Below, piece by piece: positions 47,119 through 48,655 of a stretch of DNA of 64,000 nt. Source of the stretch: Meiothermus sp. Lineage in GTDB: Bacteria; Deinococcota; Deinococci; Deinococcales; Thermaceae. The stretch spans positions 345,501-409,500 of the forward strand of contig NZ_BPIK01000001.1 in assembly GCF_026004075.1 (NCBI RefSeq), read 5' to 3'. The notes beneath the pieces are model-generated. The model worked only from the letters and a program-made list of their open reading frames with translations, was not told the origin of the DNA and made no database searches. Position 1 is the first letter of the stretch. Each line of letters opens with the position of its first letter. Position numbers and translations under genes: made by a program.

Positions 47119-48009
47119 TCACCGATTCTCGAGCACCTCGAGGGCCAGGCGGTAGGTCTGGGCATGGCCAGCAACGGTCACCTGTGGGTCGCGATTGTAG
47201 CCGCCGCCCATCACCACCACCAGCGGAAGGTGGGCCTGCTGAACCTTTGCCAGCACCTGCCGATCCCGCTCGGCCAGCCCTTGCAGGCTCAGGCCCAGGC
47301 GCCCGAAGCGGTCGTTTTGCAGCACATCCACCCCGGCGTTGTAGAAAACCAGATCTGGCCGGTGAGCGAAGGCCTGTTCCAGTGCAGGCTCCAACGCTTC
47401 CAGATACGTTGCATCGTTGGTGGCATCCGCCAACCCTATGTCCAGGTTGCTCTCCTCTTTTTTAAGGGGGTAGTTGCGCTCGGCGTGCACCGAAAGGGTA
47501 AAGACGGTGGGGTCGTTCCGAAAAAAAGCCGCTGTGCCATTGCCCTGGTGAGCATCGAGATCCACGATCAGCACCCGGCCATTCCAGCCCTGGGCCCGCA
47601 AGTAAGCAATTGCTACAGCTACATCGTTGAACAGGCAGTAGCCCTCGGCCCGCCCCGGATAGGCGTGGTGGGTTCCTCCGGCCAGGTTGAGGCCCAGGCC
47701 GGTCTGAAGCGCGTCCAGGGTGGCGGCCAGGGTTCCGCCTGCTGCATGCAAGGCCCGGGTGAGCAGGCTCTGGCTCCAGGGCAGCCCCACCTTGTGCGAT
47801 TCCTGCCGGCTGAGCCCTTCCAGCCGAAGCTTTTGCAGGTAGTCCGGGGCGTGGGCCAGGGCCAGGGTCTCCCAGGCGATGGCTGGGGCGGGTTGTACGT
47901 TCAGCTCATTCTGCAGTGCCTCGGCGACCCCGGCGTACTTGTACTTGGGAAAAGGGTGGTAATCGGGAAGCTCGAGGGTGCAGTGAGCGGTGGAGTAGGC
48001 CCGGCGCAT
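47119..48009 (-). CDS. Histone-deacetylase-family (AcuC-like) deacetylase
   Basis: 296 residues. The Zn-deacetylase active site is complete: GGTHHAYPGRAEGYCLFND (about 111-129), the metal ligands in DLDAHQGNGT (about 149-158), the third metal Asp in YNAGVDVLQNDR (about 223-234), and a late GGGYNRD. Bacterial members deacetylate small amides such as acetylpolyamines or acetyl-lysine on enzymes. The substrate here is unknown. A downstream partner is not evident; pdxY lies 125 bp further on. Confidence 0.9.
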   Translation of the reverse strand: MRRAYSTAHCTLELPDYHPFPKYKYAGVAEALQNELNVQPAPAIAWETLALAHAPDYLQKLRLEGLSRQESHKVGLPWSQSLLTRALHAAGGTLAATLDALQTGLGLNLAGGTHHAYPGRAEGYCLFNDVAVAIAYLRAQGWNGRVLIVDLDAHQGNGTAAFFRNDPTVFTLSVHAERNYPLKKEESNLDIGLADATNDATYLEALEPALEQAFAHRPDLVFYNAGVDVLQNDRFGRLGLSLQGLAERDRQVLAKVQQAHLPLVVVMGGGYNRDPQVTVAGHAQTYRLALEVLENR

Positions 48010-48092
48010 CGAGATCAGAATGCCACAAACCCTCGAGGCGCTATGTGGCCTGGGCTTTCAATATCTTTTGCATAACTCGTTGCTACTATGCA

Positions 48093-48230
48093 GTTGCTTG
48101 GCCCTGAGCCACCCCTGCTCAAAAAGGCTCCCATTGGAGCCCCTCAGGGCCAAGCAACCTAACCAAACCGCACATTCGCACCCGTATTTGCCCGACATTA
48201 CGTCCCCCTGCCAAAGGGGGACTTTATTTT
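48093..48230 (+). ncRNA. Candidate small RNA with 16-bp closing stem and intrinsic terminator
   Basis: In the gap between two minus-strand genes the plus strand carries GTTGCTTGGCCCTGAG (48093-48108), which pairs perfectly over 16 bp with CTCAGGGCCAAGCAAC (48143-48158), and an inner hairpin GGCTCC/GGAGCC (48126-48131 and 48136-48141). A single-stranded stretch and a terminator (48202-48230) follow. A -10-like TACTAT at 48084-48089 would start transcription within a few bases of the stem. The RNA would be about 138 nt. No known family recognised. Confidence 0.6.
48202..48230 (+). terminator. Intrinsic terminator of the candidate small RNA
   Basis: GTCCCCC pairs with GGGGGAC across a 7-nt loop, followed by TTTATTTT. 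No T run exists on the other strand, so it does not serve the minus-strand lipoprotein gene next to it. Confidence 0.85.
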
Positions 48231-48250
48231 GGGTACAATTTCGAACCTAC

Positions 48251-48655
48251 TCAAAAATCTATCTCGAGCTTGTAGCGCCCACTTTTGCCCTGCTGGTCGA
48301 GCTCGAGCTTGAAGCGCTCGGCCCCGCGGCGGTACTCGGCCTCGAGTTGGCTGGCCGGGCCTTTGTACTCGAGGCGGGTGCGCACCCAGCCCCGGCTGGC
48401 GAGCCAGTTGTGGAAGAAGGCGTAGACCTGCTCGAGGGAATCGCGGGTCTCGAACTCGGCCTCGCTCGAGCCGCCCCGCTCCTCGCGCTTGAGGGCAACG
48501 CTGCCCGGATAGGGCGGCAGGCCCAGCCGGGCATTCAGCACGAAACCGGAGGTCTGGGGTACGGGCCGCACCGGCGGGGGAGGGGCGGGTTCGGGCCGCA
48601 CGCCCACCACACAGGCCGAAAGCACCAAGGGTAAAAGCCAAAGCAAACCACGCAT
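48251..48655 (-). CDS. Small putative lipoprotein
   Basis: 134 residues. The N-terminus MRGLLWLLPLVLSAC has a lipobox (LSAC, Cys 15), so it is probably lipid-anchored. A Pro-rich linker (about 20-35, PEPAPPPPVRPVP) leads to a charged 95-residue domain with LEQVYAFFHNWLASRGW. The family is not recognised; the domain pattern resembles small envelope proteins that examine a two-point difference in sequence length only loosely, so no function is given. The candidate small RNA terminator lies 21 bp beyond its stop. Confidence 0.7.
   Translation of the reverse strand: MRGLLWLLPLVLSACVVGVRPEPAPPPPVRPVPQTSGFVLNARLGLPPYPGSVALKREERGGSSEAEFETRDSLEQVYAFFHNWLASRGWVRTRLEYKGPASQLEAEYRRGAERFKLELDQQGKSGRYKLEIDF

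Follow-up and report, generated by a model that had tools for sequence, protein, structure and literature searches.

Organization of the locus

The window analysed here is a stretch of 64,000 nucleotides from Meiothermus, a hot-spring bacterium, and the locus of interest is the intergenic region 48010-48250. Both flanking genes lie on the minus strand, as the initial annotation had indicated. One of them (47119-48009) codes for an AcuC/HDAC-like deacetylase (PF00850, E 1.5e-57) and is the divergent neighbour in every genome carrying the candidate described below. The convergent neighbour (48251-48655) is a short predicted lipoprotein-like ORF with no Pfam match, whose position was not conserved, other minus-strand genes standing there in most orthologous loci. 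On the plus strand the region successively displays a TACTAT box, a perfect inverted repeat around a small hairpin, a linker, a G+C-rich hairpin and, finally, TTTATTTT. The two arms of the repeat, GTTGCTTGGCCCTGAG (48093-48108) and CTCAGGGCCAAGCAAC (48143-48158), match exactly over 16 bp. The predicted fold had a minimum free energy of -59.5 kcal/mol, against -35.9 +/- 3.5 kcal/mol for shuffled sequences (z -6.7), and none of 200 shuffles was as good.

A separate inverted repeat, GCCACA...TGTGGC (48022-48049), stands just upstream of acuC. It was common to genomes with and without the candidate (e.g. G010, G012 and G016 among the latter) and is probably an operator or leader hairpin of acuC.

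Distribution and history

Searched at the DNA level, 61 related genomes yielded nine strong orthologues besides the one in the window. A covariance model (R1), built from nine sequences and run on 111 genomes of the order, again singled out these ten genomes, scoring them at 80-95 bits, while all other matches remained below 27 bits except for one of 32 bits, which turned out to be the reverse strand of an orthologue. The weak matches in Thermus and other genera (<27 bits) corresponded to coding-like sequence or to the closing stem only and were considered as chance; no orthologue was found in Thermus or in any other genus scanned. Carriers amounted to 10 of the 18 Meiothermus genomes. The search among relatives that had been proposed initially was in this sense fruitful, yet it confined the RNA to part of one genus. 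When 84,980 species genomes were scanned for exact copies of GAGCCACCCCTGCTCAWAA, the sequence occurred in four records only, all of Meiothermus: M. hypogaeus, M. rufus and two MAGs. The locus is single-copy in the genome, and all ten orthologues were located directly upstream of acuC, in divergent orientation.

Three close relatives (G010, G012 and G016) lacked the promoter, the RNA and the terminator altogether; their acuC leader directly abuts the end of the next gene, an arrangement that indicates a clean loss. On the AcuC tree, carriers (including M. rufus and G014) occupied several Meiothermus branches with non-carriers interspersed, giving five label changes. Together with the constant position, this topology fits a single ancestral gain in Meiothermus followed by repeated loss.

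Predicted promoter, start and terminator

The TACTAT box pointed out in the initial annotation (48084-48089) is indeed present, and each of the ten orthologues carries a TAnnnT box 6-7 nt upstream of the conserved G that opens the stem. It was preceded by TGn in about seven of them (TGnTAnnnT), so that the window sequence TGC-TACTAT (48081-48089, plus strand) reads as an extended -10 element. A generic sigma-70 scan returned no two-hexamer promoter. Further upstream lies a 22-bp block, TTTCAATATCTTTTGCATAACT (48056-48077, plus strand; consensus TTYCAHATCTTTTGCAHAACT), about 19-40 nt before the putative +1. Its mean pairwise identity reached 80% among the ten orthologues, against 34% just upstream. 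The block is single-copy in the genome and displayed 0-4 mismatches in loci with the RNA, compared with 5-9 at best beside acuC in loci devoid of it; it probably belongs to the promoter of the RNA. At the sequence level, the candidate is thereby provided with a promoter of its own, predicted to be of the extended -10 type with a separate conserved upstream block, and these elements were missing where the RNA was missing. In G014 the block abuts the acuC start codon. It reads there TTATCCACA, a perfect DnaA-box consensus, the other carriers displaying TTTTGCACA or TTTTACACA-like sequences.

The outer 3 bp (GTT/AAC) of the 16-bp repeat were not conserved and lie upstream of the G with which the conserved stem opens. 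As the spacing between the -10 box and the conserved 13-bp stem is 6-7 nt throughout the ten orthologues, transcription probably starts at 48096 (+1), which would give an RNA of about 135 nt (48096-48230, plus strand); both ends are deduced from the distance to the -10 box, the conserved onset of the stem and the terminator. The perfect 16-bp closing stem and the 138-nt RNA proposed initially therefore need slight revision: the repeat is exact in the window, but the transcribed stem most likely comprises 13 bp, and comparison supports a small RNA gene of somewhat shorter length. Predicted lengths in the orthologues ranged from 130 to 145 nt, with the exception of G014 (87 nt).

The intrinsic terminator GTCCCCCTGCCAAAGGGGGAC-TTTATTTT (48202-48230, plus strand) had been described as clean and restricted to the plus strand. 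Comparison bore this out, a terminator being found on the plus strand in 10/10 orthologues and on the minus strand in 0/10, where dinucleotide shuffles expect 0.5 and 0.1, respectively. The candidate accordingly ends at a terminator of its own.

RNA structure and covariation

The conserved core combines a 13-bp stem with a one-sided loop of 16-17 nt and a hairpin of 6 bp; a single C is left unpaired. In the window, the 5' arm of the closing stem, GCTTGGCCCTGAG (48096-48108), pairs with the 3' arm, CTCAGGGCCAAGC (48143-48155), and encloses the asymmetric C-rich internal loop CCACCCCTGCTCAAAAA (48109-48125), invariant in ten orthologues, followed by the inner hairpin GGCTCC-CATT-GGAGCC (48126-48141), all on the plus strand. 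All 13 pairs of the closing stem were kept in 100% of the cells among nine distinct orthologues; five pairs were changed on both sides and no cell was broken. These are the compensatory changes in related Meiothermus that the initial annotation had named as support. The inner hairpin, which it had also recognized, was paired in 94% of the cells with a double change at one pair. Over the whole core, 98.2% of the cells paired in the nine distinct sequences and double changes affected 6 of the 19 pairs (T-A/C-G, G-C/A-T and so on). None of 500 shuffles attained as high a covariation score, and slid controls dropped to 22-56% paired. The core thus displays the covarying conserved structure expected of a free-standing small RNA gene. 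The pairing itself is less informative about orientation, with 168 paired cells on the plus strand vs 166 on the minus strand (of 171), and wobble pairs do not decide the strand.

Conservation in the loop was stricter still. The 16-nt motif GAGCCACCCCUGCUCA was invariant in the orthologues, as was GAG with the adjoining loop (GAGCCACCCCTGCTCA) in ten of them, and the inner hairpin (GGUUCC-CAUU-GGAACC) was kept almost as strictly. Loop length differed by 1 nt between orthologues, which argues against a coding frame. An alternative 4-bp hairpin, GAGC-CACCCCU-GCUC, was found 0.7-1.6 kcal/mol above the minimum free energy at 37 C; this GAGC/GCTC pairing would expose CACCCCU in a hairpin loop, making a structural switch possible.

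Identity was 86-94% over the core but averaged 40% over the linker (48156-48201, plus strand), which showed no conserved structure in the window genome. In G014 the linker is absent and the terminator lies directly 3' of the core; the 87-nt RNA of this genome therefore designates core plus terminator as the minimal unit. Most orthologues (L009, L011, L012, L014 and L015) contained one more hairpin, CCTGGC...GCCAGG, within the linker, whereas the window and G014 did not.

Relation to known RNA families

In agreement with the initial annotation, which recognized no known RNA family, Rfam 15 returned nothing above the gathering threshold. At E<=10 only sub-threshold matches of chance level appeared, the best of them with eukaryotic miRNA models and well below threshold. 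The 6S RNA model (RF00013) matched neither the window (gathering threshold), nor the region (E<=10), nor the genome (E<=1). The candidate resembles 6S RNA in having an internal bubble enclosed by a long closing stem and in being a free-standing gene. Yet its core is much smaller (about 60 nt), its distribution is restricted to one genus and it has a one-sided loop (16-17 nt facing 1 nt) in place of a two-sided central bubble; identity with 6S was rejected on this shape and on the lack of a model match. With the same model, no 6S RNA was detected at E<=1 in the window genome (G000) and 49 Thermaceae genomes; a Thermus composti control gave a weak signal.

A closer resemblance in design exists with Gram-positive sRNAs with C-rich unpaired motifs, such as the RsaE/RoxS class of S. 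aureus. Like these, the candidate is intergenic, ends at a terminator and leaves unpaired a conserved run of C-rich sequence that would fit ribosome-binding sites rich in G. No Rfam match links it to them by sequence. It also differs in that the C-rich run sits within an internal loop that is one-sided and enclosed by the 13-bp stem, and its target is putative. Within the same phylum, Deinococcus radiodurans possesses dsr sRNAs, e.g. dsr11, which are stress or regulatory sRNAs (PMC7022480). No homologue of the Meiothermus RNA was found outside Meiothermus among the genomes scanned. The open literature (as distinct from subscription journals) yielded no description of a regulatory sRNA from Meiothermus. 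The RNA is most likely a previously uncatalogued family restricted to this genus.

Proposed function and target searches

Conserved RNA structure, strand, boundaries and a dedicated promoter region all support, by comparison, an autonomous small RNA gene, an assignment that we regard as highly probable, with transcription deduced from these features. RNA polymerase would start around 48096 from the extended -10 promoter assisted by the conserved upstream element, and would stop at the intrinsic terminator near 48230. The transcript is expected to fold into the 13-bp closing stem holding a strictly conserved, C-rich asymmetric loop beside the small hairpin, the variable linker joining this core to the terminator stem. 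Since the C-rich loop hardly changes while the stems covary, the former is pointed to as the active site. The exposed stretch CCACCCCUGC may then act in trans by pairing with one mRNA or a few, at G-rich segments resembling Shine-Dalgarno sequences. Such pairing at ribosome-binding sites is the likeliest mode of action and protein binding comes next, although the pairing mode and its targets, taken by themselves, are proposed tentatively and stand somewhat short of an even chance. For the explanation as a whole, i.e. an autonomous sRNA gene acting in trans through its C-rich loop, the chances appear about equal either way.

Searches for partners brought no support for pairing. The seed complement GAGCAGGGGTGG (+/-1) had 48 one-mismatch 12-mers in the genome vs 44 for the reversed control, i.e. 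no enrichment, and none of 30 sites checked fell at a convincing start site. One match antisense to tRNA-Tyr was taken as chance. The acsA gene was tested because of its link to AcuC; with approximate start positions, pairing at the start regions of acsA and acuC was no better than for shuffled sequence. In several carriers, a bactofilin start site (AGCAGGGGTG) offered 10 bp of complementarity immediately ahead of the ATG. It was rejected as a target, the match being kept in G010 and G016, which lack the RNA, and lost in carriers G000, G008, G009 and G014. This bactofilin gene sits between M23 peptidase genes, and its leader contains GCAGGGGTGTAGACTATG in several species (L174, L201-L215).

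Whatever its partner, the candidate comes with boundaries, a covariance-supported fold and an invariant putative active site. The ten carriers and eight non-carriers, the latter including the three close relatives with a clean loss, form a natural comparison set. The RNA is suited to genetic or expression work in a thermophile phylum where RNA regulation has been little studied.

Alternative explanations

The same gene might instead produce an RNA that binds a protein through the invariant loop and inner hairpin, either as a sponge or scaffold or as an RNA-polymerase binder like 6S or Ms1. This is a less probable but serious possibility, consistent with an invariant loop flanked by rigid stems, with the almost equally strict conservation of the hairpin, with the failure of the seed, acsA/acuC and bactofilin searches to reveal a complementary target, and with the lack of 6S detection in Thermaceae by the Rfam model. 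A 6S-like mode is disfavoured by the one-sided loop and the small core, and a general RNA polymerase partner is argued against by the absence of the RNA from 8/18 Meiothermus genomes and all Thermus. An improbable variant would be an RNA peculiar to the genus and working by a new class of mechanism, for instance a ribonucleoprotein or RNA-polymerase regulator replacing 6S in some Thermaceae with the one-sided C-rich loop as active site.

Equally improbable is a cis element of the acuC promoter or leader acting on the minus strand (a structured leader or operator), with an incidental plus-strand terminator. Its constant position directly upstream of acuC, the contact of the promoter block with the acuC start codon in G014 and the ability of the near-perfect repeat to fold on either strand (166/171 cells paired on the minus strand) would agree with such a role. 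However, the terminator was plus-only in 10/10, it is on the plus strand that the stem follows the -10 box and the upstream block, and acuC persists without the element in eight Meiothermus genomes and in Thermus. Finally, a dispersed repeat, MITE or transposon end, suggested by the perfect inverted repeat and the patchy presence among relatives, is very hard to reconcile with the lack of any match among viral, plasmid and phage sequences, the absence of a target-site duplication at the empty site, and a single copy standing at the same site in every carrier.
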